Assembly: GCA_947624085.1 (NCBI GenBank)
Contig: CANQIK010000011.1
Coordinates: 1-33,694, forward strand
Direction of reading: 5' to 3'
Source: an uncultured Bacilli bacterium
GTDB lineage: Bacteria; Bacillota_I; Bacilli_A; RF39; UBA660
Length of the DNA: 33,694 nt
Numbering within the stretch: position 1 is the stretch's first letter; every line of letters begins with the position of its first letter. Below, one piece after another: positions 1 to 15,485 of the stretch. The notes under the pieces were generated by a model. That model was not told the origin of the DNA. It ran no database searches and saw nothing but the letters and a program-made list of their open reading frames with translations. The position numbers and the translations under genes are program-made.

Positions 1-90
1 GAAATGATGAAAGAAATAGCAGATTTAAGGAACAAATATCATTTAAGTATGAAAGTAGAAAAATTTAAGAGTTTGGATGGTGATGAATAA
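1..90 (+). CDS. 3' end of an unidentified protein (partial)
   Basis: The first 29 codons of the window are open in frame 1 and end at TAA (88-90). The visible residues are a charged, probably helical C-terminus ending in SLDGDE. The stop overlaps the start of the next gene as TAATG, which implies translational coupling and one operon with the decarboxylase-like protein and the cupin. The start lies outside the window, and the fragment is too short to assign a family. Confidence 0.55.
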   Translation, partial: EMMKEIADLRNKYHLSMKVEKFKSLDGDE

Positions 91-419
91 TGAAGAAACA
101 AACAGCAGGTAGAGACAAGTTAGGTAATATTGCACCTAAATTTGCCGAATTAAATGATGATGTATTATTTGGCGAGGTATGGTCAAGGGAAGATAAATTA
201 TCGGCAAGAGATAGAAGTTTAATTACGATATCAGCTTTATTTGCGATGGGATTATACCCCCAATTAAAAGCCCATTTAGAAATGGGAAAAGAACATGGCC
301 TTACAAAAGAGGAAGTTGTTGAAGTGGCAACGCAATTAGCATTTTACTGTGGTTGGCCTAAAGCATGGAGTACCTTTCCTTTAATCGAGGAAGTATACGG
401 GAGTGATAAAAATGAATAG
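90..419 (+). CDS. carboxymuconolactone decarboxylase family protein
   Basis: This 109-residue protein has the family signature: LSARDRSLITISALFAMG (about residues 37-54), then LKAHLEMGKEHGLT with His61, and a closing helix QLAFYCGWPKAW. Length matches single-domain members. The family includes gamma-carboxymuconolactone decarboxylase and AhpD-like thiol peroxidases. The AhpD CxxC pair is absent here (only Cys88 in the last helix), so a peroxidase role is unlikely. The ATG shares bases with the upstream stop (TAATG), and the 3' end overlaps the following cupin gene by 8 bases. CMD-cupin pairs recur in bacterial operons and are often annotated as handling small carbonyl or aromatic compounds. 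The substrate here is unknown. Confidence 0.85.
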   Translation: MKKQTAGRDKLGNIAPKFAELNDDVLFGEVWSREDKLSARDRSLITISALFAMGLYPQLKAHLEMGKEHGLTKEEVVEVATQLAFYCGWPKAWSTFPLIEEVYGSDKNE

Positions 420-840
420 GGAAGAATTTGATAAATTAAATGTCTTTGGATTAGGAAATCCAAATGATGCGTATGCCGAGGATTTTACAGGTAATAGTTA
501 TTTAAAACAATTAGCCAAAACAGAAAATGGGATTAGTTTTGCAAATGTAACGTTTGAACCCGGATGTCGAAACAATTGGCACATTCATAAGGCTAAATCA
601 GGAGGAGGACAACTTTTAATATGTACTGCCGGATATGGCTATTATCAAGAATGGAATCAACCAGTAAGAAAATTAAAGCCCGGTGATATAGTGGTAATAC
701 CAGCAAATGTTAAACACTTTCATGGAGCAAGACCTGATTCTTGGTTTAGTCATATTGCGGTAGAAGTTCCAGGAGAAGATACATCAAATGAGTGGCTAGA
801 ACCTGTATCTGATGAAGAATACAATAAATTAGATAATTAG
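412..840 (+). CDS. cupin domain protein, hydroxynitrile-lyase/CMD-associated type
   Basis: This is a 142-residue single-domain cupin. Motif 1 is GCRNNWHIHKAKSGGGQ, giving metal ligands His57, His59 and Gln67. Motif 2 is KPGDIVVIPANVKHFHGA, giving His102 or His104. This H-x-H...Q...H pattern and the WHIH / KHFHGA spacing match the small cupins related to bacterial manganese-dependent hydroxynitrile lyases. The ATG at 412 is chosen over an in-frame GTG at 403 because GGGAG (399-403) sits at correct spacing before it. It overlaps the upstream gene by 8 bases (ATGAATAG). It is followed by a terminator, so it closes the operon. The reaction cannot be named from sequence. Confidence 0.85.
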   Translation: MNREEFDKLNVFGLGNPNDAYAEDFTGNSYLKQLAKTENGISFANVTFEPGCRNNWHIHKAKSGGGQLLICTAGYGYYQEWNQPVRKLKPGDIVVIPANVKHFHGARPDSWFSHIAVEVPGEDTSNEWLEPVSDEEYNKLDN

Positions 841-852
841 AAAATTTATAAA

Positions 853-879
853 GCAAACCAGTTGTAAGGTTTGTTTTTT
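853..879 (+). terminator. Rho-independent terminator after the cupin gene
   Basis: The stem GCAAACC (853-859) pairs with GGTTTGT (868-874, one G-T pair) around an 8-base loop. It continues into a T-run to about 879. It lies 13 bases after the cupin stop. Confidence 0.75.
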
Positions 880-915
880 AATGTCTAATAATTATTTTAA
901 ATAATAAAAAAGTTA

Positions 916-944
916 TTGCCAAACAAATGTTCAAACTATATAAT
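916..944 (+). promoter_or_regulatory. sigma-A-type promoter for the RhuM gene
   Basis: TTGCCA (916-921) and a perfect TATAAT (939-944) are separated by 17 bases. The TTG of the -35 box is also an in-frame alternative start codon. The promoter match argues that this TTG is not the translation start. Confidence 0.8.
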
Positions 945-966
945 AATGTTATTAAGGAGGTTAAAT

Positions 967-1974
967 ATGCAAGAAAGTAATATTATTTTATATGAAACAG
1001 AAGATGGAAAAATAAATATAGATGTAATTTTAAGAGATGAGACAATTTGGCTTACTCAAAAAAGCATGGCTGAATTATTTGATTGTTCTAAAGATAATAT
1101 AGGATTACATTTAAAAAATATATTTTTAGATAAAGAATTAGATAAAAATGCAACTACCGAGATTTTCTCGGTAGTTCAAAAAGAAGGTAATCGTGATGTT
1201 AAAAGAAATGTAGAATTTTATAACTTGGACGCTATAATCGCCGTAGGTTATCGAGTAAATTCTAAAAAAGCAACACAATTTAGAATATGGGCTACTAATG
1301 TTTTAAAAGATTATATTATTAAAGGTTTTAAAATAGATGTAGAAAGAATGAAAAATGGACCAAAATTTGGTAAAGACTATTATGAAGAATTACTTGAAAC
1401 AATTAAAGAAATTCGTCTAAGTGAACGAAGACTTTATCAAAAAATTACCGATTTGTTTGAAAGTACAAGTATAGATTATAATAAAGATTCTGAAGAAGCA
1501 TATACATTTTTTAAAATTGTTCAAAATAAACTTCATTATGCTATATCTGGTCATACTGCAGCAGAGCTTATATATGAAAGAGTAGATGCCAATAAAGAAC
1601 ATATGGGACTTACTAATTGGAAAAATTCTCCAAATGGAAAAATTATGAAATATGATATAAGTATTGCTAAAAATTATTTAAACGAACAAGAAATTAAAAA
1701 ATTAGAAAGTTTAACAACCTTATTTTTAGACTATGCCGAAGATATGGCAAATGAGCATAATCTAATGACTATGCGAAAATGGATTGATGCAACAGATGAT
1801 TTATTGAAATTTCGAAAAAAGAAAATTTTATCAAATTCCGGTAATATTTCACATAAAAAGGCTTTAGATAAAGCTAATGAAGAATATGAAAAATTTAGAA
1901 TAAAACAAGATAAAATTTATGTATCATCAATGGATGAATTATATGAAAAATATTTAGAAGAAAATAAAAAATAG
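967..1974 (+). CDS. RhuM family protein (virulence-protein-like, KilA-N/Bro-type N-terminus)
   Basis: This 335-residue protein matches the RhuM family throughout. The N-terminal DNA-binding-like region contains TIWLTQKSMAELFDCSKDNI and HLKNIF, then a segment ending EGNRDVKRNVEFYNLD with AIIAVGYRVNSKKATQFRIW and VLKDYIIKGF. The C-terminal half has the family block HYAISGHTAAELIYERVD. The start is ATG 967 behind AAGGAGG (954-960). The family is named after a Salmonella SPI-3 gene and is common in mobile and accessory DNA; its biochemical role is unsettled. It stands alone, with a terminator before it and its own strong promoter, and no restriction or toxin partner is adjacent. Confidence 0.88.
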   Translation: MQESNIILYETEDGKINIDVILRDETIWLTQKSMAELFDCSKDNIGLHLKNIFLDKELDKNATTEIFSVVQKEGNRDVKRNVEFYNLDAIIAVGYRVNSKKATQFRIWATNVLKDYIIKGFKIDVERMKNGPKFGKDYYEELLETIKEIRLSERRLYQKITDLFESTSIDYNKDSEEAYTFFKIVQNKLHYAISGHTAAELIYERVDANKEHMGLTNWKNSPNGKIMKYDISIAKNYLNEQEIKKLESLTTLFLDYAEDMANEHNLMTMRKWIDATDDLLKFRKKKILSNSGNISHKKALDKANEEYEKFRIKQDKIYVSSMDELYEKYLEENKK

Positions 1975-2010
1975 ATTTGATAAAATACTAGCCTCCTAGG
2001 GGAGAAAGAA

Positions 2011-2055
2011 ATGTTGAAAAAAAGCAAAAGATTTTGTTTAATAATATTGCTGTAG
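2011..2055 (+). other. tiny ORF or remnant of a secreted peptide start
   Basis: A 14-codon ORF starts at ATG 2011 behind GGGGAGA (1999-2005) and reads as a signal-peptide-like start (LKKSKRF followed by a short hydrophobic run), then stops at TAG. The purine-rich RBS is directly preceded by a complementary CTCC, so a small hairpin could mask it. It may be the residue of a broken gene, a leader peptide, or chance. Nothing else in 1975-2071 looks coding. Confidence 0.2.
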
Positions 2056-2071
2056 AAATACTCGAAAAGTA

Positions 2072-2095
2072 ATTTCAAACAAATTTGCTTGAAAT
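2072..2095. repeat. 24-bp near-perfect palindrome
   Basis: The 24 bases starting ATTTCAAACAAA and ending TTTGCTTGAAAT are self-complementary except for one symmetric mismatched pair. There is no spacer and no following T-run, so this looks like a dimeric-protein DNA site rather than a terminator. It lies about 30 bases upstream of the extended -10 of the editing-protein gene. Confidence 0.5.
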
Positions 2096-2123
2096 AATAT
2101 TATTTCATTTAGTATTTAACTAA

Positions 2124-2132
2124 TGCTATAAT
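2124..2132 (+). promoter_or_regulatory. extended -10 promoter for the editing protein operon
   Basis: TGCTATAAT is a perfect extended -10 (TG-N-TATAAT). No good -35 is seen at 17 bases (TTTCAT-like). This is typical of promoters driven by the extended -10. The palindrome at 2072-2095 lies just upstream. Confidence 0.6.
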
Positions 2133-2199
2133 AATACATAGATAAAGAATCACTTGCAATAAATTTGAAGTTTTTAAAATGCTGGAAAGGATTATAGCT

Positions 2200-2700
2200 A
2201 TGGATAAATACGAAATATACGATTTTATTAAAAAGAAAAATATATGGTATGAAATAACTGAACATAAAGCCGTTTATAATATGCAAGAACTTGATGAAAT
2301 AGATTTGCCTTATAAAGAAGCTGAGGGTAAAAATCTTTTTGTAAGAGATGATAAAAAAAGAAATTACTATTTAATTACTCTTAAAGGAGATAAAAAATTA
2401 GATTTAAAAACTTTTCGCAATACATATCATACTCGCCCATTAAGCTTTGCAAGTGAAATAGACTTAATGAATATTTTGAAATTAACGCCTGGATCTGTAA
2501 CACCTCTAGGGTTACTTAATGATAAAGAGTTGCAAGTAGCTTTCTATCTGGACGAAGAGTTTTTGGCTGATAAAAAAATTATAGGTATTCATCCGAATGA
2601 TAACACAGCAACCATTTGGTTAAAAACTGCAGATTTAGTTGACATTATTAAAGAACATGGTAACGAGGTAAATATAATTAAAAAGGATGATCATGAATAG
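2200..2700 (+). CDS. prolyl-tRNA editing protein (YbaK/ProX family, PrdX type)
   Basis: This is a 166-residue free-standing trans-editing domain that hydrolyses mischarged tRNA, typically Ala-tRNA(Pro). Family blocks are all present: EHKAVYNMQE (21-30), KNLFVRDDKKRNYYLI (44-59), LKGDKKLDLK (61-70), PLSFAS (80-85), LKLTPGSVTPLGLLND (93-108) and IGIHPNDNTATIW. The ATG at 2200 is chosen because GGAAAGG (2184-2190) lies 9 bases upstream; an ATG at 2179 has no such site. It overlaps the next gene by 8 bases, so the editing enzyme, a lipoprotein and a flavodoxin are co-transcribed. No functional link between the three is obvious. Confidence 0.88.
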   Translation: MDKYEIYDFIKKKNIWYEITEHKAVYNMQELDEIDLPYKEAEGKNLFVRDDKKRNYYLITLKGDKKLDLKTFRNTYHTRPLSFASEIDLMNILKLTPGSVTPLGLLNDKELQVAFYLDEEFLADKKIIGIHPNDNTATIWLKTADLVDIIKEHGNEVNIIKKDDHE

Positions 2701-3190
2701 AAGATTCTTATTTATCTTAATGATAGCTACCTTAATATTTTTAGTAAGTGGCTGTTCAATTCATACTATAGATTTTAATCAAAATAATATAAGTGAGCAA
2801 GAAATTAGCGATGAGAATTTAGGAGTTGAAAGTGAAATGAATAATAATGATTTTGAAACTGAAATCCATGTTACAATTAATGAAAAAAAGTACAACCTAT
2901 TTTTAGAGGACAATGATACAGCTCGAGAATTTTTAAATAATTTGCCTCTTGAGTACAATATGAAAGAGTTAAATGGTAATGAAAAGTATATTTATATGAC
3001 AAAGAAATATCCTACTAATTCATTAAAATTTGAATACATTAACCAAGGCGATGTAATGTTATATGAAGATGATTGTCTAGTTATTTTTTATAAAAGTTTT
3101 GCTACATCATATAGTTATACTAAAATAGGCCATATTGAAAATTTAGAGGATTTGGGAAGTGGCGATATAACCGCTAAATTTACGAAATAA
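2693..3190 (+). CDS. lipoprotein with cyclophilin-like domain
   Basis: This 165-residue protein begins with a lipoprotein signal (MNRRF, a hydrophobic run, lipobox LVSGC with Cys21), so it should be anchored on the outer face of the membrane. An acidic, Asn-rich linker leads to a domain of about 110 residues with the cyclophilin-like pattern: EIHVTINEKKYNLFLEDN, REFLNNLPL, NQGDVMLYEDDCLVIFYK and SYTKIGHIEN. Proteins with this domain often lie next to flavodoxins, as here. Prolyl isomerase activity should not be assumed; the single-domain bacterial members have no established reaction. The start at 2693 is preferred over ATG 2687 because AAAAGGA (2681-2687) then has usable spacing. Confidence 0.8.
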   Translation: MNRRFLFILMIATLIFLVSGCSIHTIDFNQNNISEQEISDENLGVESEMNNNDFETEIHVTINEKKYNLFLEDNDTAREFLNNLPLEYNMKELNGNEKYIYMTKKYPTNSLKFEYINQGDVMLYEDDCLVIFYKSFATSYSYTKIGHIENLEDLGSGDITAKFTK

Positions 3191-3206
3191 TGAAAGGAGA
3201 AAGAAT

Positions 3207-3674
3207 ATGAGTGAAATTTTGGTGAGTTTCTTTTCAGCAAGTGGAGTAACAAAAGAAGTGGCAAATAAAATTGCCGAGTATACAGGAGGAGATTTATTGG
3301 AAATAGAACCTGTAAATAAATATACAGATGAAGATTTAAATTGGCATGATAAAACTAGTAGATCATCAGTTGAAATGGCTGATTCAGCAGTAAGGCCAGC
3401 GATAAAAAATGAGGGTAGTAACATAAGTGATTATGACACCATTTTAATTGGCTTTCCTATATGGTGGGATTTAGCTCCTAGAGTTATCAACACATTTATT
3501 GAAGAAAATAATTTTGAAAATAAAAAAGTTTATGTGTTTGCAACTTCAGGGGGTTCTAGTATAACAAATAGTTTTAACACTTTAAAAAATACTTATAGTA
3601 ACATAAATTTTATAAGCGCTAAAAGATTTACAAGTAGTGTATCTCGTGATGATGTAACAAATTGGATAATTTAA
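3207..3674 (+). CDS. flavodoxin family protein
   Basis: This is a 155-residue FMN-binding electron carrier or NAD(P)H-dependent reductase of the short flavodoxin type. The phosphate loop is FFSASGVTKEVA (8-19). The segment IGFPIWWDLAPRVINTFIE carries aromatic residues expected to stack on the isoalloxazine, and FATSGGSS is the later flavin-contact loop. GAAAGGAGAAAG precedes the ATG at good spacing, and the gap to the lipoprotein is only 16 bases. The C-terminus ends abruptly (DVTNWII), slightly short of what is usual. Twelve bases after the stop begins the remnant of a WG-repeat gene, so the last residues may have been altered at a deletion junction. Confidence 0.9.
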   Translation: MSEILVSFFSASGVTKEVANKIAEYTGGDLLEIEPVNKYTDEDLNWHDKTSRSSVEMADSAVRPAIKNEGSNISDYDTILIGFPIWWDLAPRVINTFIEENNFENKKVYVFATSGGSSITNSFNTLKNTYSNINFISAKRFTSSVSRDDVTNWII

Positions 3675-3686
3675 ATCACTATTTTT

Positions 3687-3826
3687 AGAACATGAGAGTT
3701 TGTGCCGAAATTGAAAAGCTTGATGATAAAATATTTGCTGATACTTTAATATCACTTTATAAACAAAACCCTAGTGTTCAAGAAGAGTATCCAACATTAG
3801 CAAAAAAAACTTTAGTTTATAAATAA
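3687..3826 (+). pseudogene. 3' remnant of a WG-repeat protein gene
   Basis: From about 3687 the DNA matches the 3' end of the WG-repeat gene at 3955-5931 (its bases from about 5767). A 2-base deletion relative to that copy lies near the left edge. The surviving frame from ATG 3692 gives 44 residues, including VCAEIEKLDDKIFADTLISLY and SVQEEYPTLAKK, which align with the tails of both complete paralogues. No RBS precedes the ATG. This is best read as what remains after deletion of most of a third WG gene, with the break next to the flavodoxin stop. The terminator of the lost gene is retained. Confidence 0.8.
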
Positions 3827-3827
3827 T

Positions 3828-3863
3828 AACCTAATAAGTTTAATTAAGCTTATTAGGTTTTTT
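3828..3863 (+). terminator. terminator of the remnant WG gene, now ending the flavodoxin operon
   Basis: AACCTAATAAG (3828-3838) pairs perfectly with CTTATTAGGTT (3849-3859), and the bases between them extend the complementarity. A run of six T follows. The same element is repeated after the next WG gene (5912-5945). Confidence 0.9.
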
Positions 3864-3895
3864 GTTTAGATAGATACATTATCAAAAAAGTATAT

Positions 3896-3923
3896 TTGAA
3901 ATTTAAAGGTTGTATGGTAAAAT
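3896..3923 (+). promoter_or_regulatory. promoter of the first WG-repeat gene
   Basis: TTGAAA (3896-3901), 16 bases, TAAAAT (3918-3923) with an upstream TGG giving an extended -10. AGGAGG (3941-3946) then precedes ATG 3955 by 8 bases. Confidence 0.7.
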
Positions 3924-3954
3924 AAAAGGCAATTATTTATAGGAGGTTATTGTT

Positions 3955-5931
3955 ATGAAAAAAGTAAGTGCAATTATTAAAGAAAAGAGTGCATATAACT
4001 TAGACACAGTTATTAATGATATCGCTTTGGCATCTAATAACGCCGGGGAAACAGGCCTCATAAATATTAGAACCGGGGAAGTTGTTGGTAGCTTTGGCGA
4101 TTATGATAGCCGTTATGATTTATATCAAAAATTATTTTATCAAGAAAGAACAATTGAAGACGAAAGTAAAGATCCAGAAAAAAGCAAAACTTATATTAGA
4201 ATTTATGATGCTTTAAATGAAAAAATGATTGTAAATGGCTGGCTAATTGTTGAAAGAATTGTAGCAGGGAACTGCCCTGTTATTATTCTCCAAGATCCTA
4301 GTACAGGTAAATATCATTTGCTCAACAGCAGTAATAGTAAATCACCCGGAGATATATTGGAAGATGCACTTGATGAAGTAAATGACTTAAACTATGATTT
4401 GGGTGGAGATTATTATTTTAGGGTATCTAAAGGAGGCAAAAAAGCTCTTTACTCATCTTTTCAGGGGCTAATTACACCATATGAATATGATGATATTCAA
4501 AAGATAGGCATGACAATGGTATTTACCAAAGGGAAACACAAATTTTTTATTGTTGGAAATAGAATCAATGATAAAAGCCCTTTATTTGATGAAATAAAAC
4601 CCGATGAGAACGATCCAAAAATAATTTATTGTAAGAAAAAATCTACTATAACAATATATTATGCTGATAATAGCTTTTATGAAGCATTATATAATTTTTC
4701 TGGATATGATGATGTTAAATGCTTGCAAAAAACAGATGAACTTTACATTGACCAAAAGTTTGAATATAACTTCTTACTTAAGAAAAAAAACAAATATGGG
4801 CTATGTTATGGCGTTAGACGTCACTATCAAGAGGCCGATAACAGCTCTTGTAAATTGTTGCTAGATATAGAATATGATGCAATAGAATACAAAGATGGCG
4901 ATTTTTATCTTACAAAAGATGGTAAGTTAGGATTATTAACAGGAACAGGTGAGAAACGAACATTTATATCACCTAAATTTGATAAAATAATTAAGTTAAG
5001 AAATGAACCTTATTATGAAGTATTTAATGGTGATGAGCGTAGTATTATTAATGCAACTGATGAAAGTGTTGTAATAAGCAATTATAAAATAATCGAAAAT
5101 GTTAATGGCGGCGATCCTATAATATTTGAAAAAGATGGTAAAAAAGGAATACTTTATATCTTACTTCATGGAACTTCATTATTAAATGGCTATGATGATA
5201 TTGTCCATATAGTGGGTCATTATTATCTAGTTATAAAAAATGGAAAAATGGGACTTATTTTTAGTGGTAAAACAATTGTTGAACCAATATATGAGTCAAT
5301 TGAAATAAATGGCTACAGCTATGAGCAATTTAAAAGTGCACATAATCCATTTGAGGATAATAACAACATTAGTTGTTTATATTTAACTTTGAAAAACCCA
5401 AGTGAAACTTATGGTATTGTTAAATGTAGAAGATCACACTTTGACACTTTGAGAGAAACTGAATTAGAAATTTTGAGTGGCACAGGCTTTAAGGACATAA
5501 AGCTTTTAGAAGATATAGTAGTTTTAAAAGAATTTAATAAAACTTATGTTTATGATTACTCTAATAAGTTATTAAAAACTTTTCCTGAAGATGTTCAAAT
5601 AAGTGCTGATACTTCAATGGGACATAATTTTTATTTAGTAGATGGCGAGCATTATAGATATGTAAATGAAGAATTTCAAAAAGCATATTTTGAAGATGTA
5701 GAGTTATATGCTACAGCCTATGAAAGTGAGTATGGCACTGTAGTAGTAAATAGCCGTGATAAAGCAGAACATGATAGAATTTGTGCCGAAATTGAAAAGT
5801 TAGATGATCAAACATTTGATGATACTTTAATATCACTTTATGGCCAAAACCAAATATCACTTTATGATCAAAGCTCTAGTGTTCAAGAAGAGCATCCAAC
5901 ATTAACAAGAAAACCTAATAAGCTTAATTAA
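3955..5931 (+). CDS. WG-repeat protein, paralogue 1
   Basis: This 658-residue protein has no signal peptide or membrane segment, so it is probably cytoplasmic. It is built from degenerate WG-beta repeats of the form [D/N]GKxGL..G...I.P.YD.I. Examples are KNKYGLCYGV (about residue 278), KDGKLGLLTG (321), KDGKKGILYI (392) and KNGKMGLIFSGKTIVEPIYE (427). The Trp of the repeat is replaced by Tyr, Leu, Lys or Met. The N-terminus shares MKKVS and IYDALNEKMI with the paralogue at 8790. The C-terminus carries the shared tail YESEYGTVVVNS...EHDRICAEIE..DD.TFDDTL, with a private 24-bp internal duplication. The last five codons lie in the terminator stem and loop. The family's function is unknown; a protein-binding scaffold is plausible. 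Confidence 0.8.
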   Translation: MKKVSAIIKEKSAYNLDTVINDIALASNNAGETGLINIRTGEVVGSFGDYDSRYDLYQKLFYQERTIEDESKDPEKSKTYIRIYDALNEKMIVNGWLIVERIVAGNCPVIILQDPSTGKYHLLNSSNSKSPGDILEDALDEVNDLNYDLGGDYYFRVSKGGKKALYSSFQGLITPYEYDDIQKIGMTMVFTKGKHKFFIVGNRINDKSPLFDEIKPDENDPKIIYCKKKSTITIYYADNSFYEALYNFSGYDDVKCLQKTDELYIDQKFEYNFLLKKKNKYGLCYGVRRHYQEADNSSCKLLLDIEYDAIEYKDGDFYLTKDGKLGLLTGTGEKRTFISPKFDKIIKLRNEPYYEVFNGDERSIINATDESVVISNYKIIENVNGGDPIIFEKDGKKGILYILLHGTSLLNGYDDIVHIVGHYYLVIKNGKMGLIFSGKTIVEPIYESIEINGYSYEQFKSAHNPFEDNNNISCLYLTLKNPSETYGIVKCRRSHFDTLRETELEILSGTGFKDIKLLEDIVVLKEFNKTYVYDYSNKLLKTFPEDVQISADTSMGHNFYLVDGEHYRYVNEEFQKAYFEDVELYATAYESEYGTVVVNSRDKAEHDRICAEIEKLDDQTFDDTLISLYGQNQISLYDQSSSVQEEHPTLTRKPNKLN

Positions 5932-5945
5932 CTTATTAGGTTTTT
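5912..5945 (+). terminator. terminator overlapping the 3' end of WG paralogue 1
   Basis: AACCTAATAAG (5912-5922) pairs with CTTATTAGGTT (5932-5942), followed by a T-run. The left arm is coding sequence (PNK) and the stop TAA (5929-5931) sits in the loop. In the remnant copy at 3824 the stop comes before the stem. Confidence 0.88.
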
Positions 5946-5986
5946 GTTTAGATAGATATATTTTAATAAAGTTTAAAAAAATATAT

Positions 5987-6014
5987 TTGAAATCAAACGC
6001 CTGTGTGCTATAAT
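5987..6014 (+). promoter_or_regulatory. promoter of the ankyrin-WG operon
   Basis: TTGAAA (5987-5992), 16 bases, TATAAT (6009-6014) preceded by TGC as an extended -10. The geometry is identical to the promoter at 3896-3923. GGGAGG follows at good distance from ATG 6046. Confidence 0.8.
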
Positions 6015-6045
6015 AAATAGCAATTAGATTCAGGGAGGATATGTA

Positions 6046-8763
6046 ATGAAATATAGTTCAGAAAGTCAAATTAGAGCACTTAATTATTTAATTGAAAACG
6101 CACCTCATGATATGGAAAAATTTCGAAATTTATACAATATAGAAGTCGATGGTCTTAGAGCTGAAATCTCATTCGATGACATCTTTCTTAGTAAAGTATG
6201 GACAGCAGAAGAAAAAATTCAATTGATAAAATTATATGGGCATACAGAAAATAAGAATGGCGATTGGAGATGTCGATGTTTCATAACTAAATATAAGTGT
6301 GCAGTTGATTTATGTATAAAGGAGAAAAATTATTCAGGTTTACAAGCTGTTTTAAGCTTGGGCGCTTTTATTTCACAGTCAACTATTTCCGATATTATCA
6401 AATATATAGATGACCCAAATGAACGTTATGAATATTGTAAGTTAATAATTAGCTATTATGGCGATAAAGAAAACATAAAAGTATGTACTAGTGAACAACG
6501 AAATTCATCATTTGAATTTCGGGTAATAGAAATACCAACATTATGTGATTTATATTATGATGATCGTTCATCTAGCTTTTTAATAAATCATTGCCATAGT
6601 CGTGAAGATTACATGAGTTCAATGAAAGATATTTGTGCTACTGGTGATTTAGAATTGGTTAAGTTGTTTTTGCCAACAGTAAAAAATATTAATCAATTAT
6701 TTGTATTTGCTGTAGAAAGCCAAAATATTGAAATGGCTAAATTATTTATTGAGGCAGGTGCAAATGTTAATTTTCAAAATTTATCAGTATTAGACCCAAG
6801 CAGAAGAATAATTGAATTGGTTAAATTATTCGCTAAGGAAGATGATGTTGAATTATCAAATATATCAGAGCCATATTTTGAACCATACTTTTTTAAAACT
6901 CCATTAAAAACGGCTATTGATAATGATGATTTAGAAATGGTTAAATTTTTGCATCAAAATGGAGCTGATTTAAACTTTGTAGATCATAGTGAAAAAATGC
7001 AAAAAGTAGTCGGTAAACGTAAGAAAGATAGTTATGCTTATAATGTTTTAACTAAATCTCCCCTTGAGTATGCTATTAATATAGGACCTGGATCCATTAC
7101 TTATACAAAAGTTCGCGAAGGCAAAAAAGTTGGTGATCGCGAATACAAATCTTTTGAAGATCGAATGGCGATTGTTAGATATTTATATGAAAATGGCGCA
7201 ACATTTGGTAATGGAGAAATTAATTATACCGATTTAATTTGTTTTGCAATTAGAGCGGAAGACTATAAATCTACTAAATACTTTTTTGAAGAAGCAGAAA
7301 AAAATGGTAGTAAATTAGATATGGCAAAAATAATAAGTTTTATTCATGAGCCGGGTGTAGAGAAAGATTATAAATATAAAATATTTCCTTTAGGCGCCAA
7401 ACCTTGGATTAAACTATGTGAAGAATATTCGAAAAAAATTGATGCCGAAAATTATACTAGAAATGTAAAATTATTATTAGAAAAAATATTTAATAATGTT
7501 AATTATGAAAATTATGAATTATATAGTGATTTAATAGCTGATCTTAGTAAGCTATTGCCAAAAGAGGAACTTAAAGATATTCCAGCAATTTTTAGTGTAA
7601 GCGAGAAGCATTTAGAAAGTATTCTAAGCTTAGGTTATGATATAAATTGTATTAAAGATGATAGAAATATTTTGATGGAATACATAGTAAGTAGACCCGT
7701 TAGCATTGAGCAAATAAATAAGTTAATTTCTTTAGGCGCAAATATTAATTATATCAGTCCTAAAAGTGGTGATAGTGCTTTAAGTTTAGCGATTAATATG
7801 CTTACTAAATATGATTTTTATAGATTTGAAAGTGTAACTAATGGTTATACATATCTGCCTCAAGGAATTGAAGAAGAGCTAATCTCATTTGTTAAAGCAA
7901 TAATTGAACTATCGAGTGAAGAAGTTATAGGCAGTGAAAAGGTAAAGGAAAATGCGTGCTCACGAATAAGCCCTGGATTTTCTCAAGTAATATATAATGA
8001 ATTGTTGGTAGCATTATCTAAAAAAGGGTTTAAAGTTGATGATGATTATGTAGCAGATTCATTTTACGGCTTTTTATACCAATATGGATTTCGCAGTAAA
8101 GCAACTGATGAATATATAATTAATCCATGGGAATATTTACAAAATTTATATAATAACTTTTCTAATAGCCTTGTTGGAAGAAATTTTTATTTCCCTGAAA
8201 TTAATCAAGTTAAAAATTTTCCGTATGGTACAGAGCAAAATGATACTATATTTAATCTAATAATTGAACACTTAAAAAGAAATTTTATAACTTCAATAGA
8301 ACAAATACCTAATCCTGATGAAATAGTCAATAAGCTAACTTCTAATACACAAAGGGCAATTTATATGTATGGCATTGGAACAGCTTTACAAAAAGCTCAA
8401 GACAATTTATTAAAAGAAATTTCAAGATATATTGGCAATTTAGACTATCGTCAAATAATAGAATTACTAGATAATTTTCCTTTCATAGATATAGAAGCAA
8501 TTAATAGAAATGAATTAATAATAAAGGCTATGGAAAAAGGGGAAATCAAGCTATGTGAAGAGTTAATAAAAAGAGGAGCTACTATTATTTGCTATGATAA
8601 AAATGGCCATGATGTAACATTCAAGATATATAGACCTGAACAAATTAATCTTTTCCAAGCGTTAAGCTCAGGTCAATATAATCCTAATCAAGAATTTGAA
8701 GATTTATTAAGAGAAATAGGCTGTGGCAAAGGAATGTCTAGAAACCTTAAACAAGGAAATTAA
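6046..8763 (+). CDS. large ankyrin-repeat protein
   Basis: This 905-residue protein has no signal peptide and no membrane segment. Ankyrin-type repeats are scattered along it: IEMAKLFIEAGANVNFQN (about residue 236), TPLKTAIDNDDLEMVKFLHQ plus NGADLNFVD (304), MAIVRYLYENGATFGNG (381), INKLISLGANINYIS (561) and IKLCEELIKRGATIICYD (841). Stretches between them look like degenerate helical repeats. No catalytic motif is visible. It has a good RBS and its own promoter. The second WG-repeat gene follows after 26 bases without a promoter, so the two are co-transcribed. Ankyrin proteins are usually binding scaffolds; pairing with WG-repeat proteins suggests a complex, but this is inference. Confidence 0.85.
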   Translation: MKYSSESQIRALNYLIENAPHDMEKFRNLYNIEVDGLRAEISFDDIFLSKVWTAEEKIQLIKLYGHTENKNGDWRCRCFITKYKCAVDLCIKEKNYSGLQAVLSLGAFISQSTISDIIKYIDDPNERYEYCKLIISYYGDKENIKVCTSEQRNSSFEFRVIEIPTLCDLYYDDRSSSFLINHCHSREDYMSSMKDICATGDLELVKLFLPTVKNINQLFVFAVESQNIEMAKLFIEAGANVNFQNLSVLDPSRRIIELVKLFAKEDDVELSNISEPYFEPYFFKTPLKTAIDNDDLEMVKFLHQNGADLNFVDHSEKMQKVVGKRKKDSYAYNVLTKSPLEYAINIGPGSITYTKVREGKKVGDREYKSFEDRMAIVRYLYENGATFGNGEINYTDLICFAIRAEDYKSTKYFFEEAEKNGSKLDMAKIISFIHEPGVEKDYKYKIFPLGAKPWIKLCEEYSKKIDAENYTRNVKLLLEKIFNNVNYENYELYSDLIADLSKLLPKEELKDIPAIFSVSEKHLESILSLGYDINCIKDDRNILMEYIVSRPVSIEQINKLISLGANINYISPKSGDSALSLAINMLTKYDFYRFESVTNGYTYLPQGIEEELISFVKAIIELSSEEVIGSEKVKENACSRISPGFSQVIYNELLVALSKKGFKVDDDYVADSFYGFLYQYGFRSKATDEYIINPWEYLQNLYNNFSNSLVGRNFYFPEINQVKNFPYGTEQNDTIFNLIIEHLKRNFITSIEQIPNPDEIVNKLTSNTQRAIYMYGIGTALQKAQDNLLKEISRYIGNLDYRQIIELLDNFPFIDIEAINRNELIIKAMEKGEIKLCEELIKRGATIICYDKNGHDVTFKIYRPEQINLFQALSSGQYNPNQEFEDLLREIGCGKGMSRNLKQGN

Positions 8764-8789
8764 AATTACAAAAAGGAGAAAATAAAATT

Positions 8790-10679
8790 ATGAAGAAAGT
8801 AAGTAAAGTTTCAAATAGTAAATCTTTATATACTATTTTGGAAAGTAAAAATAATATTGCATATGTATCTTTTGCCAGTGGGAAAAAAGCATTAGTCAAT
8901 ACCAAAACCCATGAAATAATCACTAAAATTGATGATTATATAAATTGTAAGGCTTATGGTAGATTCTGTTTATTAGAGAAAAAAATAGACAATACGCGAA
9001 AAACTGTAACAATTTATGATACTTTAAATGAAAAAATGATTGCTGATGGTTGGGAATTTGTGAAAACACTTGATCGTGGTGATGAAATTAAAGTATTAAA
9101 ATCCACACTGGATGGCAAACTTCATATATTTTTCGAATCTATATATGATGATGTATTTGATATGCCTTTTGACTCAGTTGAAGAAATAGAAAATGATGGC
9201 CATTTTATTTATTATGTTTTGACTACTAATGGAAAAAAATTAATTTTCCAAAGCTCTTATGGGTTTAATAGTAAACTATGGCCAAAAGAATATGATAATA
9301 TAGAAAAAGTGGGAACTATTATTGTTTTCACTGAAAACGGCAAGAAATCTTTTACATTTTCAATTGAATATTCAGTAATTGATGGTGATTTTGATTCCAT
9401 TACTGTAGATTCTAATAATGATAGTATAGTATATTGTAAAAAAGATGGTAGAATTAAAATTTATACTTCAAAGAAAGAACGATTATTGTTAGATACAACA
9501 TATTATGATGATGTAAAATATATTAGTGTTAAAGAATATAGTGTTCCTTGTGGTTATTATTCTAAAAGATATGGTAATTATTGTTTTAAAACTGTTAAGG
9601 ATGGCAAAGTAGGGATTCTTAATATCGATTGTGGTTTTTCAGATGAACATTTATTTACGATCGAAGTATTGACTCCATGTTTGAAAGAAATTCGAGAACT
9701 AGGAGATGATAAATGGCTTTTAATAGAAGATGACAAAAATAAAGGGTTACTTTCCTACTTTGAAGACTATGGCTATGACTTATGCCCCATTTTAGAGTGC
9801 GACGACATAGTTTTATTTGGTGGTGATTATTGTGGTCTCATCAAAAATGGGCGCTGTGACATTGTAAAAATGACTAACCAGGGATGCGCTTCTTATCTTG
9901 TCCCCCATTGTGAAATGGCCTCTTCACAATATAAAGATGGGAATATAGTATATAAACAAGATGGTAAATATGGAATTGTTATGCAAGGCATAGTATCTCC
10001 GGCAAAATATGATAATATCATTAATGTGTCAGAAAACTATTTCGTAGTTGAAGAAAATAATAAGCAAGGATTGATGCGCAAAAATAAAATGATTTTGCCT
10101 GTAAAATATGATGAAATTAAATTGCTTCAGCCTGAAGAACAGAAAGATCCTGATGATTTAAAAACTTTATTGTTTATTTTGAAAAATGAAAATCATTATG
10201 AATTAGTTAAAATAACCTTGGCAAATGGTGCAGTACGTACATATGATTATGAATTTGAGACAGCTGAGTATTTTAGTGACATAATAGTACTTACAGATGA
10301 ACTTGCAACATACATTTATGATTATAATGGAACCAAATTAAGAGTATTTCCTTTGAAACCTGAAATTACCGAAATAGAGACTCAAGATTGTAATTATGAA
10401 AAAAGGTATTTATATTATATTGATGGCGAATATTATTTAAATGATGGAAAAAACTTTGAACCTACTAATGCCGTTAAAGATGGTATCAATTTATATATGA
10501 CCGCTTATGAAAGTGAGTATGGAACAGTAGTTGTAAATAGTTTAGATGAAGCAGAACATGATAGAATTTGTGCCCAAATCGAAGGATTAGATGATCAAAC
10601 ATTTGATGATACTTTACTTGGTCTTTATGAACAAAATCCTAATGTTCAAAAAGAATATCCCGTTTTAAAAAGGAAATAA
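8790..10679 (+). CDS. WG-repeat protein, paralogue 2
   Basis: This 629-residue cytoplasmic protein is paralogous to the one at 3955. It shares the MKKVS start, IYDTLNEKMIADGW (paralogue 1: IYDALNEKMIVNGW), YDNIEKVGTIIVFTENGKK (paralogue 1: YDDIQKIGMTMVFTKGKHK), and the repeats KDGKVGILNID (about 270), QDGKYGIVMQGIVSPAKYD (390) and NNKQGLMRKNKMILPVKYD (421). The last 60 residues are the shared tail YESEYGTVVVNS, AEHDRICAQIEGLDDQTF and DDTLLGLYEQNP. The middle has diverged strongly from paralogue 1, so tail and N-terminus evolve more slowly than the repeat body. AAGGAG (8773-8778) precedes the ATG at slightly long spacing. It is the second gene of the ankyrin operon. Confidence 0.8.
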   Translation: MKKVSKVSNSKSLYTILESKNNIAYVSFASGKKALVNTKTHEIITKIDDYINCKAYGRFCLLEKKIDNTRKTVTIYDTLNEKMIADGWEFVKTLDRGDEIKVLKSTLDGKLHIFFESIYDDVFDMPFDSVEEIENDGHFIYYVLTTNGKKLIFQSSYGFNSKLWPKEYDNIEKVGTIIVFTENGKKSFTFSIEYSVIDGDFDSITVDSNNDSIVYCKKDGRIKIYTSKKERLLLDTTYYDDVKYISVKEYSVPCGYYSKRYGNYCFKTVKDGKVGILNIDCGFSDEHLFTIEVLTPCLKEIRELGDDKWLLIEDDKNKGLLSYFEDYGYDLCPILECDDIVLFGGDYCGLIKNGRCDIVKMTNQGCASYLVPHCEMASSQYKDGNIVYKQDGKYGIVMQGIVSPAKYDNIINVSENYFVVEENNKQGLMRKNKMILPVKYDEIKLLQPEEQKDPDDLKTLLFILKNENHYELVKITLANGAVRTYDYEFETAEYFSDIIVLTDELATYIYDYNGTKLRVFPLKPEITEIETQDCNYEKRYLYYIDGEYYLNDGKNFEPTNAVKDGINLYMTAYESEYGTVVVNSLDEAEHDRICAQIEGLDDQTFDDTLLGLYEQNPNVQKEYPVLKRK

Positions 10680-10770
10680 ATCTTTTCTTACAAAAAAAAT
10701 AAATTGTGTTACAATCATTTTGCTGTGCCAAAATACTATTAAACCAATTTTATCAATGAATAACAAAAAA

Positions 10771-10806
10771 ACGTAAGTTTAATTGAATAAGGACTTACGT
10801 ATTTTT
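10771..10806. terminator. bidirectional terminator between the ankyrin-WG operon and the sortase gene
   Basis: ACGTAAGT (10771-10778) pairs perfectly with ACTTACGT (10793-10800). There is an A-run on the left and ATTTTT on the right, so it can stop transcripts from both strands. Apart from it, 10680-10922 holds only a 30-codon ORF. Confidence 0.85.
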
Positions 10807-10833
10807 ATGCCCAAATAATAGGCGAAAATATTT

Positions 10834-10926
10834 ATGAAAAAAATTGATTTAGAAAATCTATTTTGGGGCTTATTAAAAGATTCTTCTTTTAAAAATGGAT
10901 TAAAAAATATCAGTGTTAATGACTAG
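10834..10926 (+). other. 30-codon ORF of doubtful status
   Basis: ATG 10834 to TAG 10926 would encode a short peptide beginning MKKIDLENLFWGLL. There is no RBS or promoter, it lies downstream of a terminator, and its end overlaps the sortase stop on the other strand. It may be chance in AT-rich DNA. Confidence 0.12.
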
Positions 10927-11522
10927 GCTTTTGGCTTTGCTATAACGACTAAGCGATAGCTATTATTGTTTTCACAAGTTATAAGAGTTAGTAGTTTTCC
11001 CTCTGCTCTTTGCGTAAAATACGACATATCAGTATCTTTTATGGTATGTTTTTCCAATACTTCAAAAAAGTATGTCCCTTTATGACTAACTATTTTAATT
11101 TCATCACCAATCTTAAGATAATGAAGAGCACGAAATACATTAGAGGAATTATGGCCTGCTAAAAAGATGGTGCCATTTTTATCATCAATATTTATGGAGC
11201 CATCCATCATTCCCACAAGTCCGTTATCAAAATCTTTAGTTTCCGTGCCTTTAATAATAAGTCTTTTAATGCCATAACTAGGTATTTCAATATAGCCAAG
11301 ATATTCATTTGTTAGACCTATATTGGCACTTTCATTTTCTACATTTGTATCATCTATAATGGGAGGCGTAACATTTCCAAACATTTTTTCAACAATTTGT
11401 TCTGTTTTTATTTCATCTTCATATTGTTGCACCTCTAAAATAAAAGTATGTAGGAAAGATACTATAATTAGAATCATCCCTACATACATTATAATTTTAT
11501 CTTTCTTTTTTTCTTTTAGCAT
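10923..11522 (-). CDS. sortase, class C/D-like, adhesin-linked
   Basis: This is a 199-residue membrane-anchored transpeptidase. It has one N-terminal membrane segment (about 11-29) and no C-terminal one. The catalytic triad is visible: LAGHNS (His124), TLITCEN (Cys183) and SYRLVVIA (Arg190). The strand YIEIPSYGI (77-85) followed by LIIKGTE is the usual sortase core start. Its first codons overlap the 3' end of the adhesin gene by 26 bases, so it is translated from the same mRNA and almost certainly anchors or polymerises that adhesin. The ATG at 11522 has AGGAG only at long spacing (15 bases); an ATG at 11489 is an alternative start. The lack of a second membrane segment argues for an anchoring (class D/E) enzyme rather than a classical class C pilin polymerase. 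Confidence 0.85.
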   Translation of the reverse strand: MLKEKKKDKIIMYVGMILIIVSFLHTFILEVQQYEDEIKTEQIVEKMFGNVTPPIIDDTNVENESANIGLTNEYLGYIEIPSYGIKRLIIKGTETKDFDNGLVGMMDGSINIDDKNGTIFLAGHNSSNVFRALHYLKIGDEIKIVSHKGTYFFEVLEKHTIKDTDMSYFTQRAEGKLLTLITCENNNSYRLVVIAKPKA

Positions 11523-14500
11523 ATAGTATTAGACTCACTCCTGCTAAGGTGGTAGCATTAATCACAAAGAAACTTCCCAGCTCAGTATTATAAGTATTAG
11601 GCATTTTTATCTTTTCATCTTTCATAACAACTTTAATAATTTGCTTATTTTCGGTAATACTAAACTCAACTTTCTTTTCATTTATTAAATATCCCTCGGG
11701 TGCTTCTTTTTCTAAAATATAGTAGTTGCCATATTCTAAATTATCTATTATAATTTGGCCGTTTTTATCTGTTCGGCCAGAAAAGAGTAGTTCATCATTT
11801 TCGGCATTATATATTTCAATTAAAGCATTTGCTAAAAGGTTATTATCAAAATCTTTTTTGGTAAACTCTAAAGTACCTTTGATTTTATGGTTAATCATTT
11901 TTACATTAACAGCTTGGTTATGGTCTTTGATGGCAAATGATATTTTTTCTTCACTCAGTAAGTATCCCTTAGCTGTTTCTTTTTCGATAATATAATACTC
12001 GCCATATTCTAAATCACTTAAGGTTATTTTGCCGTCTTCATTTGTTCGACCGGCAAAAATAAGTTTACCTGTATTAGCATTATATACTTCTATAAGGATA
12101 TTAGGCATAGGGTTTTCCTTTGTATCTACTTTGCTAAATTCTAAAGTGCCCTTAATTTTTTTATCCGTCATTGTCTTTTTTACAATAGCACCATCTTCTT
12201 TAATTTCAAAATATAATTTTTCGGTGTTTATTAAGTATCCTTTAGGAGCTTCTTTTTCTATTAGGTAATATTCGCCAAATTCTAGATTAGCAATTCTAAT
12301 TGAACCTGTACCATCCGTTTTTTGCGCCATAATTAGTTCATTAGTTTGCGCATTATATATTTCAATTAAGGCATTTGCTAAAGGACGGCCATCTTCACTT
12401 AATTTAGTAAACTCGAAAGTTCCTTTGATTTTTTCGTTAGTCATTTTTAGCTGTACTACTTGCCCATTTTCTTTTATTTCAAAAAAGATTTTATCACTAT
12501 TTTCCTTATACCCCTGTAAAGCTTCCTCTTCAATTAAATAATACTTTCCTAAAACTAAATCATTTATTACAATTTTGCCATTTTCGTTAGTTTTTCCTGA
12601 GTATATTAATTCATTATCCATGGTATATACCTTTATTTTTACATCTTTTAAAGGTTTATCAGAATCTAAATCTGTCTTTAAAAATTCCATAGAACCTTTA
12701 GCTAGATAATTAATTAATGTAAGTTCCTTAGTTACTTTGGCAGTGTACTGATCTTGATAAGCTAAGTTTATTTCGTAAGTGTTATCATCTAAGACAAAGC
12801 CTGGAATGGTTGCTAATTCTTTTAAATTATATTTGCCGAGTTTTAAATTTTTTATTGATATATGACCTGTATCATCGGTTGTATATTTATTAATTAACAT
12901 ACCTTTACTATCGTATAAACCAAAAACAATATTAGCAAGGGGCACCTGTTCATAAGTATAAGTACCATCTTTAATAACTAATTTTTCACCATATTTTTGC
13001 AGTTTTATATCACCTTTAACTTCTTCATTAGTAAACTTTAGTTTTATGATACTACCTAAATCATCAGTGTGTTGTAGCTCTGAGTCATCATTAATTGAAA
13101 ACTTTAAAGGTGTTGCATTCCATAGATAGCCCTCGATTGCTTGGTCAACTTCTTCAAGCTGGTAATCGCCAACAGTTAAAGCATAAGGTGTAATTAAAAT
13201 TCCGTTTTCATCAGTTGCAAATTCACAATAAGTTTGATGGTTAGGATAAGAAATTGTTTGACATACATATTCGTTTGTATTAAGATCTTTAATCTTAAAT
13301 TTAATGCCGGAGATATTAATATTATTGCCGTCTTGATCAACTTTAATAACTTTAACTCTTGCACTTAGCGTCGCATTACCAAATACTTTACTTATAGTAG
13401 GACCTGGTTCTGTGATTTCAAATTCAAAATCTTGAATTTTTTCATGTCCAGATGGCGTTGTCAATTGTCTAAGGGTATATTTGCCATAGGGTAGAGTAAA
13501 AGTAATTTTGCCCTCATCATCTGTTGTGAGTTTTTGCACAAGCTTATCTCTTTTATTATAGATACCAAATTCCACATTAGGTTCGGGTGTAAGCACTTCG
13601 CTTTTATTCGAGGCAACAACTTTAGTAATTACGTATTCTCTTTTAATAACCTTTTCACTTACTTGAACAATCGGTGTTAAAAGTTTCGTAGTTATTTCAA
13701 AATAATGTTTTTCCGGGTCAAGTAAATAACCTTGACTGGGCGTTAACTCTTTTAAATAGTAACGACCTAAATCTAGATAATCACTTATTGCATATCCGTT
13801 GGCGTCAGTTACAATCTGAGTTACAAATGTATCATCTTCTTTGTAAATGCCATAGACAGCCCCTTTCATAACAGCATCGCCTTGAGGAGCGGCTAAAGTA
13901 GTATCAAAATCATGTTTATTTAGTCCAACTTTTCCTCCTGCGATATTAAGATTTATCTTGCTTTCAACAGGTGTATAACTTCCGATTTCTGCTAAATCTT
14001 GGCCATTATCTTTAACATATACGATCGTTGGATGTGAATAGTTAGTATCTTTTTTAGTTAACTTAAGCTCAATATTGCCAAATCTATTAGCTTTTATATT
14101 TAAAGTATTGTTATTTTTGGTTACCGTTACATAATCATTACTTAATACTTCATAATTTTTAAGAACCCCATTTTTATCTGTTAAATTCTGTGATTTCCCG
14201 ATGGTTAAATTGTATGATGTTTTACCAAAATCTGGTGTTATTTCATGATCAACGAGTAACTTTTCCATTTCACTTATTTCCGCGTCAAATGGCGCTACCT
14301 CTTGTCCATTTAAAGTATCGGTAAAATATATCCGCCAGCCCCGAGGTACCGTTTGCCAAATTAAATATTGGGTTACAGCATACCATTTTAAATCAGAATG
14401 ATTATAGTTTGTATCTTGATAACCATAGCCATAATAAATAAGTAACTCAATGCGGTGCCATTGCTCACTAGTTAGTTTAGTAGCTATTTCCTGATTATTA

Positions 14501-14763
14501 TCTTGGCCCGCATAATTTTGGCCTGGTAGTATTGGTGAGTCTACTTCCAAACAATAAACTACATGGCCATCACTTGCTTTAGTTATCGTCGCCATTTGTT
14601 CATAATGGATTTTACCACTAGGTTCAGCTCTATCAATAAATATATTGGGAATAACTGTGGTTCTATCGTAAAACTGCTCTGTATAAGTTGTAGCATTACC
14701 CTTTAATGGACTTACGACAAACATAACTAATAAAAGTAATAAATATTTTAATTTTCCTTTCAA
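11497..14763 (-). CDS. thioester-domain, multi-Cna-B sortase-anchored adhesin
   Basis: This is a 1088-residue surface protein. A signal peptide (1 to about 24) is followed by a thioester domain with HVVYCLE (Cys71) and WYAVTQYLIW (Gln132), the pair that forms the Cys-Gln thioester in TED adhesins. Next come a beta-rich spacer and eight Cna-B/SpaA-type domains starting with strands such as GDIKLQK, GSMEFLK, GTFEFTK, GTLEFSK and GTLEFTK. The last four are exactly 91 residues each. Each of these four has a strand-A Lys and a Glu in YYxIEKEAP-like loops, as for internal isopeptide bonds. The C-terminus is a sorting signal: MPNTY instead of LPxTG, a hydrophobic segment, then KRKKER. The TTG start is supported by AAGGGGGG six bases upstream. 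The sortase gene overlaps its end; a sigma-like regulator precedes it. Confidence 0.9.
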   Translation of the reverse strand: MKGKLKYLLLLLVMFVVSPLKGNATTYTEQFYDRTTVIPNIFIDRAEPSGKIHYEQMATITKASDGHVVYCLEVDSPILPGQNYAGQDNNQEIATKLTSEQWHRIELLIYYGYGYQDTNYNHSDLKWYAVTQYLIWQTVPRGWRIYFTDTLNGQEVAPFDAEISEMEKLLVDHEITPDFGKTSYNLTIGKSQNLTDKNGVLKNYEVLSNDYVTVTKNNNTLNIKANRFGNIELKLTKKDTNYSHPTIVYVKDNGQDLAEIGSYTPVESKINLNIAGGKVGLNKHDFDTTLAAPQGDAVMKGAVYGIYKEDDTFVTQIVTDANGYAISDYLDLGRYYLKELTPSQGYLLDPEKHYFEITTKLLTPIVQVSEKVIKREYVITKVVASNKSEVLTPEPNVEFGIYNKRDKLVQKLTTDDEGKITFTLPYGKYTLRQLTTPSGHEKIQDFEFEITEPGPTISKVFGNATLSARVKVIKVDQDGNNINISGIKFKIKDLNTNEYVCQTISYPNHQTYCEFATDENGILITPYALTVGDYQLEEVDQAIEGYLWNATPLKFSINDDSELQHTDDLGSIIKLKFTNEEVKGDIKLQKYGEKLVIKDGTYTYEQVPLANIVFGLYDSKGMLINKYTTDDTGHISIKNLKLGKYNLKELATIPGFVLDDNTYEINLAYQDQYTAKVTKELTLINYLAKGSMEFLKTDLDSDKPLKDVKIKVYTMDNELIYSGKTNENGKIVINDLVLGKYYLIEEEALQGYKENSDKIFFEIKENGQVVQLKMTNEKIKGTFEFTKLSEDGRPLANALIEIYNAQTNELIMAQKTDGTGSIRIANLEFGEYYLIEKEAPKGYLINTEKLYFEIKEDGAIVKKTMTDKKIKGTLEFSKVDTKENPMPNILIEVYNANTGKLIFAGRTNEDGKITLSDLEYGEYYIIEKETAKGYLLSEEKISFAIKDHNQAVNVKMINHKIKGTLEFTKKDFDNNLLANALIEIYNAENDELLFSGRTDKNGQIIIDNLEYGNYYILEKEAPEGYLINEKKVEFSITENKQIIKVVMKDEKIKMPNTYNTELGSFFVINATTLAGVSLILYAKRKKER
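11605..12696 (-). repeat. four tandem 273-bp repeats encoding Cna-B domains
   Basis: The domain boundary K-G-[S/T] falls at 12694, 12421, 12148 and 11875, and the equivalent Lys-Met before the sorting signal at 11602. Every interval is exactly 273 bp (91 codons). The copies are clearly diverged in sequence yet have no length change. Confidence 0.85.
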
Positions 14764-14879
14764 TGTAATCCCCCCTTGGTATTAAAATTTCTATTATCTA
14801 CATCATGTTATTTTATTTATAAACAAATTATCAACATTTCTTAAGTTTTAAACATTTAGCCATCTTCCTTTCTAATTTT

Positions 14880-15335
14880 TTATTTAAAGCACATATAATC
14901 TAAGCCTAAAGCAGAAACAAATTTTATACATGCGCTTTTTTTAATTTCCCGAACTTTATCTTTGCCATAATTAATGGTAGTTATGATGTCATCTTCACTT
15001 GCTCCTTTGTAAAAAGTTAAGTCAAAGACCTGCATTTCTAGATTATTAAGTTTACGCATTGCTAAGGTTATTTTGGAAAGTAGCTCGTAGCAATCGTTTT
15101 TATCTTTAACTGTAATTAACAAGTCTTTTAAATCATAATTACTAATAGAGCTACCTTTAACTTTAATAAAATCATCATATCTTACCCGATAATTACTTGT
15201 TATTTTAGGTATAGCAACATTAGTATCCATTAATTTTAAGTATTTAAATGTTTTAAAAATATCTAGTATAATGTTTTTTAGCCTGACATAATCATATAAA
15301 GATAATTCACTTTTCCCTAGTAATGTATTGTTCAT
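14880..15335 (-). CDS. sigma-70 region 4-like transcriptional regulator (ArpU-like)
   Basis: This 151-residue protein ends in a helix-turn-helix resembling sigma region 4 or ArpU-type regulators: KLNNLEMQVFDLTFYKGASE, DDIITTINYGKDKVREIKKS and ACIKFVSALGLDY. The first two thirds are not recognisable. The start ATG 15335 follows AGGGGG (15343-15348) at 7 bases. The frame stays open upstream to a TTG at 15428, which would add 31 residues and run through the leader hairpin. The gene is the first of the adhesin operon (116-base gap to the adhesin), so it probably controls adhesin expression and possibly its own. ArpU-like proteins are usually prophage late regulators; no other phage gene is present. 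Confidence 0.6.
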   Translation of the reverse strand: MNNTLLGKSELSLYDYVRLKNIILDIFKTFKYLKLMDTNVAIPKITSNYRVRYDDFIKVKGSSISNYDLKDLLITVKDKNDCYELLSKITLAMRKLNNLEMQVFDLTFYKGASEDDIITTINYGKDKVREIKKSACIKFVSALGLDYMCFK

Positions 15336-15403
15336 TAATGATCCCCCTGACTTATTGATATAAAATGAGCACTCTTTAATTTGTTGGATTGATATTGTAG
15401 GAT

Positions 15404-15449: not shown

Positions 15450-15485
15450 GTGATATAAATGCTATAAAAAATTAATATGAGAACT

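Follow-up and report, generated by a model that had tools for sequence, protein, structure and literature searches.

WG-like genes beside an ankyrin gene in an uncultured Bacilli bacterium may be orphan sensor-type genes of a MoxR-like AAA+/VWA machine

Results

The window analyzed here is a stretch of 33,694 nt (contig CANQIK010000011.1, positions 1 to 33,694 of the forward strand, assembly GCA_947624085.1). It belongs, as contig 11, to the draft genome (1.22 Mb; 94% complete) of an uncultured Bacilli bacterium. We confirmed three long open reading frames on the plus strand at positions 3955-5931, 6046-8763 and 8790-10679. They encode a WG-like protein of 658 aa (WG-A), an ankyrin-repeat protein of 905 aa (Ank) and a second WG-like protein of 629 aa (WG-C). 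WG-A and WG-C are paralogues, which share 31% identity over the full length (E-value 6e-70). A third WG-family gene is represented by a stump of its last ~45 codons directly behind a flavodoxin gene, at positions 3689-3826 of the plus strand. The initial annotation had described this stump, and it is real: over the final 40 aa of WG-C the identity is 60% (1.9e-10), and the stump is also found at the DNA level as repeat D1. Two further full-length WG copies are present in the same genome, at positions 6407-8377 and 8513-10438 of another contig (C26). The proteins at the locus had been described as cytoplasmic. In agreement with this, hydropathy analysis revealed no signal peptide or transmembrane segment in WG-A, Ank or WG-C: the maximum values over 19 aa were 1.29, 1.17 and 0.99, respectively, as compared with 2.42 for the neighboring sortase. 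No Rfam family was detected in window positions 1-16,000.

Several neighboring genes should be mentioned. Window positions 916-1974 encode a RhuM-family protein, which matches PADLOC candidate PDC-S05 (6e-141) and is mobile or hot-spot-like. At window positions 10923-14763, a sortase gene overlaps the gene for a 1088-aa surface protein with a thioester domain and SpaA repeats; the syntenic protein in genome G007 has 1270 aa. On contig C26 (L025:341-6310), the two WG paralogues are directly preceded by a gene for an NPCBM/F5-8C surface protein of 1635 aa and by one for a protein of the choloylglycine hydrolase family.

As the initial annotation noted, no fixed role is known for WG repeats, and our literature search found no role for the WG-A/WG-C family. 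PADLOC gave no match for the WG proteins. WG-C contains one repeat that passes the curated cutoff of PF14903 (WG_beta_rep; 26.8 bits against 25.6). WG-A has no PF14903 match, and most homologues of WG-A and WG-C score under the cutoff. Thus, we regard this as a degenerate family of WG/beta-propeller-like proteins. In other words, the earlier description of two paralogous WG-repeat proteins holds as regards paralogy, while the repeat label applies to WG-C and not to WG-A. The family further differs from WG_beta_rep in having its own C-terminal tail. The predicted structure of WG-C (pLDDT 73.5) is all-beta except for three helices at the terminus, this helical tail covering residues 587-622. Its best matches among solved structures in a Foldseek search were largely tandem WD40 propellers (E-value ~1e-9), with TM-scores of only ~0.15 and an open model (pTM 0.52). 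Because the TM-scores are low, we regard the propeller-like fold as a lead and not as a demonstration.

The C-terminal tail of WG-C (approximately residues 566-629; positions 10486-10676, plus strand) is conserved, whereas the body has diverged. Between WG-C and WG-A, the last ~64 residues are 75% identical and the body 28%, and the DNA of the tails is 83% identical over 146 nt. The corresponding values for tail and body are 83% and 63% between the two C26 copies, and 54% and 41% between the two WG proteins of G488. When WG-C was compared with the WG protein of an operon in G260, there was no excess in the tail (33%, against 36% for the body). Thus, the tail of WG-C groups with its genome-mates and the body does not. 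This likeness may reflect either gene conversion or a partner within the cell that all these tails have in common. In a phylogenetic tree, WG-A groups with the two C26 copies, the sister of this group is the WG protein encoded in an operon of G304 (support 100/99), and WG-C lies on a long branch.

Ank matches the Pfam families Ank_2, Ank, Ank_3 and Ank_4 above their cutoffs; the Ank_2 match (45.6 bits) covers residues 197-312. No catalytic domain was recognized. The single-chain model (pLDDT 45) was too poor for a fold search. The PADLOC candidate PDC-M72A resembles the ankyrin stretch (2e-15), but the best stretch covers ankyrin repeats only (profile positions 230-342 of 392). Likewise, the likeness to the Dot/Icm ankyrin effector of NCBIfam is confined to the repeats and scores 18.9 bits against a cutoff of 600. 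Therefore, we do not regard Ank as an effector.

The 75 nt upstream of Ank, WG-A and both C26 WG genes are homologous and contain an extended -10 promoter and a ribosome-binding site. Upstream of WG-A (3884-3954, plus strand), the promoter reads TTGAAA-16-TAAAAT; the copy before the ankyrin gene (5975-6045, plus strand; repeat D5) reads TTGAAA-16-TATAAT. The identity of the Ank upstream region to the three WG promoters, summed, was 134. The best score among 32 other upstream regions was 100, and 2000 shuffled sequences gave 87.6 +/- 6.3 with a maximum of 109. The promoter type had been said to be shared by all three genes. This is correct for WG-A and Ank; WG-C has no WG-like promoter of its own. 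Because WG-C starts only 26 nt behind Ank, the arrangement suggests that the two genes are probably co-transcribed as one operon. A terminator-like hairpin (CCTAATAAG..CTTATTAGG, followed by a T run) is located behind the stump at 3828-3866 (plus strand) and recurs behind WG-A and both C26 copies. The homologous promoters and the common terminator show that the WG gene has been copied as a promoter-gene-terminator unit. The simplest reading of the window is that Ank was inserted between a WG promoter and WG-C.

We then consider the distribution of the two families. By profile search, the WG family was found in 15 and the Ank family in 8 of the 385 genomes of the order. Only two genomes possess both: the window genome and G062, in which the two families are on separate contigs. 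Thus, the families are apart in 19 of the 21 genomes that possess either of them, and they are adjacent in the window genome only. When the window genome is left out, the overlap is one genome (Fisher p = 0.23). None of the nine congeners (9/9) has either family. In a class-wide search, the WG family was essentially confined to the taxonomic family of the source, and a wider scan of contigs returned only the G036 contig again and a short match in Chitinophaga. A phage, viral or plasmid origin was considered and set aside, as neither family had a match in viral contigs, phages or plasmids. Damaged copies are frequent: the WG gene has three stops in G213 and two in G251 and is shortened in G371 and G262, and the Ank gene is split in G309 and reduced to a stump in G012. 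These results bear out the initial annotation in describing a duplicating, decaying and strain-variable gene set. The site itself also varies. In the congener G007, entirely different genes stand between the same two flanks, namely the sortase/pilin block and a RhuM gene with 95% DNA identity. In G006, the flavodoxin, CMD and cupin genes are contiguous.

In four cousin genomes, the WG gene is part of an operon. We surveyed the DUF2201_N genes of the order (51 genomes) and read their surroundings. In G304 and G357, the operon is complete and WG is the last of four genes, which encode a MoxR-like AAA+ protein, a small AAA-like protein of ~131 aa, a DUF2201_N metallopeptidase/VWA protein and the WG protein. 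The MoxR-like AAA+ proteins of these two genomes were assigned by their P-loop and by homology, since only one of them matches AAA_5, and weakly. In four genomes (G304, G357, G036 and G260), WG lies directly downstream of the VWA gene, overlapping it or within ~10 nt. In G036, the operon is truncated by the end of the contig and shows VWA and WG, and the G260 operon is split over two contigs with the break inside the VWA gene. The WG-linked VWA proteins form a single clade (support 100/99). The presence of a DUF2201-bearing genome background was associated with WG (p = 0.008, or 0.0015 counting G036) and with Ank (p = 0.013 or 0.05), these values being nominal and uncorrected for kinship. WG homologues in G488, G253, G371 and G377 have no visible operon, some of them being at contig edges, and in some WG genomes an AAA relative is kept elsewhere, on other contigs.

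The AAA proteins of the WG operons are short (359-390 aa), as compared with 556-960 aa for 44 complete AAA proteins from WG-less operons. The difference corresponds to an N-terminal region of ~280 residues, which is present in 44 of the 45 complete WG-less relatives and absent from the AAA proteins of WG operons. We aligned this region in ten members, in which it matches DUF6273 weakly; the remaining long AAA reading frames were classed by length. The ratio of short to long AAA proteins was 3:0 with WG and 1:44 without it (Fisher p = 2.3e-4), the WG cases belonging to one clade. The single exception, in G259 (L141), is a short AAA with neither the sensor-like region nor WG; since no plausible start codon precedes it, this gene is possibly decayed. 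A tblastn search of the WG operons, the window and contig C26 found no trace of the N-terminal region.

In five of the WG-less sister operons, this region is the target of a retroelement. At nine loci, a family of open reading frames lies upstream of the AAA gene, and the seven of them that were scanned all proved to be reverse transcriptases (RVT_1). One small protein upstream of AAA is bAvd-like, with a score below the cutoff. At five loci (L117, L137, L146, L153 and L158), a template of 77-100 nt is located 1.35-1.42 kb upstream of the AAA gene, and the variable repeat corresponds to AAA residues ~69-105. Among the 74 mismatches between template and variable repeat at these loci, 63 are at template adenines and none is at a variable-repeat adenine. 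This pattern is the hallmark of a diversity-generating retroelement. Together with the reverse transcriptases, it shows that the element targets the N-terminal domain of the AAA protein. Thus, the five retroelements diversify a DUF6273-like domain fused to a MoxR-like AAA+ protein, beside a DUF2201 metallopeptidase/VWA gene. At the WG operons, no template/variable repeat pair with a nearby reverse transcriptase was found. Because the sensor-like region is hypermutated in the sister systems and absent from the AAA proteins of the WG clade, the WG proteins probably replace it. In other words, the WG clade probably exchanged a variable AAA domain for a separate WG protein, and, since all operonic WG cases belong to one clade, the replacement would be a single evolutionary event.

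We looked for the other components of the operon in the window genome. At 94% completeness, it contained no relative of the DUF2201/VWA protein, and no relative of the operonic AAA protein was detected at 1e-5. The one other MoxR-type AAA_3 gene found, of a general type, is on contig C38 and precedes a gene for a protein of 897 aa with hydrophobic segments. The absence of AAA and VWA relatives and the placement of WG-A and the C26 copies beside the G304 protein led us to read the window WG genes as orphan genes for sensor-type subunits.

In genus g54 there is a second type of WG neighborhood (L067:8498-14275 and L072), without AAA or VWA genes. The WG genes there flank genes for an SDR-like enzyme, a 299-aa protein of unknown family, a repeat-like protein of 195 aa and a GDPD-like enzyme.

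Discussion

MoxR-vWA ternary conflict systems have been described, and they include a subtype that contains beta-propellers (Kaur et al. 2020, PMC7159879; Kaur et al. 2021, PMC8195603). The cousin operons resemble these systems: a MoxR AAA, a vWA and a third component stand together in the WG operons of G304, G357, G260 and G036. They differ in that the VWA is fused to a DUF2201_N metallopeptidase domain and in that a small AAA-like protein is encoded between AAA and VWA. Searches with Pfam and PADLOC profiles, which are not the authors' own, detected no known effector and no VMAP/iSTAND component among the WG-operon proteins. WG repeats are not mentioned in the MoxR-vWA paper of Kaur et al. 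The window locus differs further, because its draft genome has no detectable core: neither the MoxR AAA+ nor the vWA component of a ternary system was found in it. Retroelement-diversified sensors of MoxR ternary systems have also been reported (PMC10907252), the diversified domain being fused to the vWA protein. The sister operons have the same equipment, namely a reverse transcriptase, a bAvd-like protein and an adenine-mutagenized template/variable repeat. However, their diversified domain is on the MoxR AAA itself, and the WG clade possesses a WG protein and no diversified domain. The initial annotation had likened the gene set to systems under conflict or to strain-specific scaffolds. The idea of a conflict system is supported by the WG homologues that belong to MoxR-VWA operons, since a sensor-like domain diversified by a retroelement is present in relatives of these operons.

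We propose that the WG protein is most likely the recognition subunit (sensor or adaptor) of a MoxR-like AAA+/VWA (DUF2201) machine. Its variable, propeller-like beta body would bind a target, and its C-terminal helical tail would dock on a common partner, which in the operons would be the AAA or VWA protein. The metallopeptidase-VWA protein is a possible executor. In the operon, WG would substitute for the sensor-like domain that is hypermutated in the sister systems and located at the N-terminus of their AAA proteins. In the window genome, the WG genes may have lost the AAA+/VWA core and then been duplicated as promoter-gene-terminator units (the stump, WG-A and the two C26 copies). The copies would have diverged in the body, kept a common tail and partly decayed, and the ankyrin gene would be independent accessory cargo behind a copy of the WG promoter. 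Thus, we read the locus as an orphan array of WG genes, that is, the sensor-type genes of the machine cut loose from their core, with Ank as an unrelated accessory, and we put the probability of this reading at about one half. The more specific idea that WG proteins are exchangeable sensors in place of the hypermutated domain, of which the window genome keeps an expanded set without the machine, is offered only tentatively.

If WG stands in for a hypermutated antigen-sensor-like domain, it gains a concrete and testable role, namely target recognition. The locus, so far unexplained, could then be understood in terms of conflict systems with variable sensors, whose logic is known. The setting is uncultured Bacilli with small genomes, as compared with the multicellular bacteria stressed in published surveys.

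The strongest rival of the sensor reading is that WG is a client. In other words, the MoxR-AAA/VWA pair would be a maturation chaperone or metallopeptidase for WG, and the orphans would no longer need it. MoxR-VWA pairs commonly act on a partner encoded in the same operon, as is reported for NorQ/NorD and nitric oxide reductase (PMC9976466), and the position of WG as the last gene, overlapping or nearly so, fits such a role. However, the 44 sister AAA proteins without WG have an additional region at the N-terminus, and it is missing in just those operons that encode WG; moreover, the WG copies of the window exist without the chaperone. Therefore, we consider a client role unlikely.

Alternatively, WG and Ank may be independent cargo of a variable site, that is, decaying duplicates of no current function that became adjacent by chance. 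The absence of both families from the nine congeners, the different genes between the same RhuM and sortase/pilin flanks in G007 and the many broken copies in other genomes are consistent with this. However, the window genome keeps four WG reading frames of 629-658 codons open behind conserved promoters, and copies with divergent bodies share a conserved tail. These features suggest selection or active gene conversion, and decay without function seems improbable to us.

The initial annotation had proposed a single complex for strain-specific recognition, made up of Ank and both WG proteins, and had named homologues lying apart in most genomes as the finding against it; although the genes are adjacent on one strand, with Ank and WG-C in a probable operon and homologous promoters before WG-A and Ank, the families lie apart nearly everywhere and co-occur no more than by chance without the window genome, and the nearest Ank homologue in sequence is among mobile-element-like genes in G475, so that we reject Ank-WG as one system and consider such a complex very improbable. 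What links Ank and WG in the window is, as judged from the sequence, a copied WG-type promoter and the probable co-transcription of Ank with WG-C, from which we do not infer a physical complex.

Ank homologues are encoded in seven other genomes, in none of which a WG gene is adjacent. The closest one (L075:8806-11541 in G475; 59% identity) lies among integrase-like, repressor-like and RhuM-like genes, as if on an integrative element. We also considered Ank as an alternative fourth gene of DUF2201 operons and set this aside, because the Ank profile matched none of the surrounding open reading frames. In G062 and G397 (L028:3881-6543 and L074:12095-14559), two genes for AAA_14/DUF4143-type ATPases stand in tandem before the ankyrin gene, and these ATPases are another possible set of partners for Ank.
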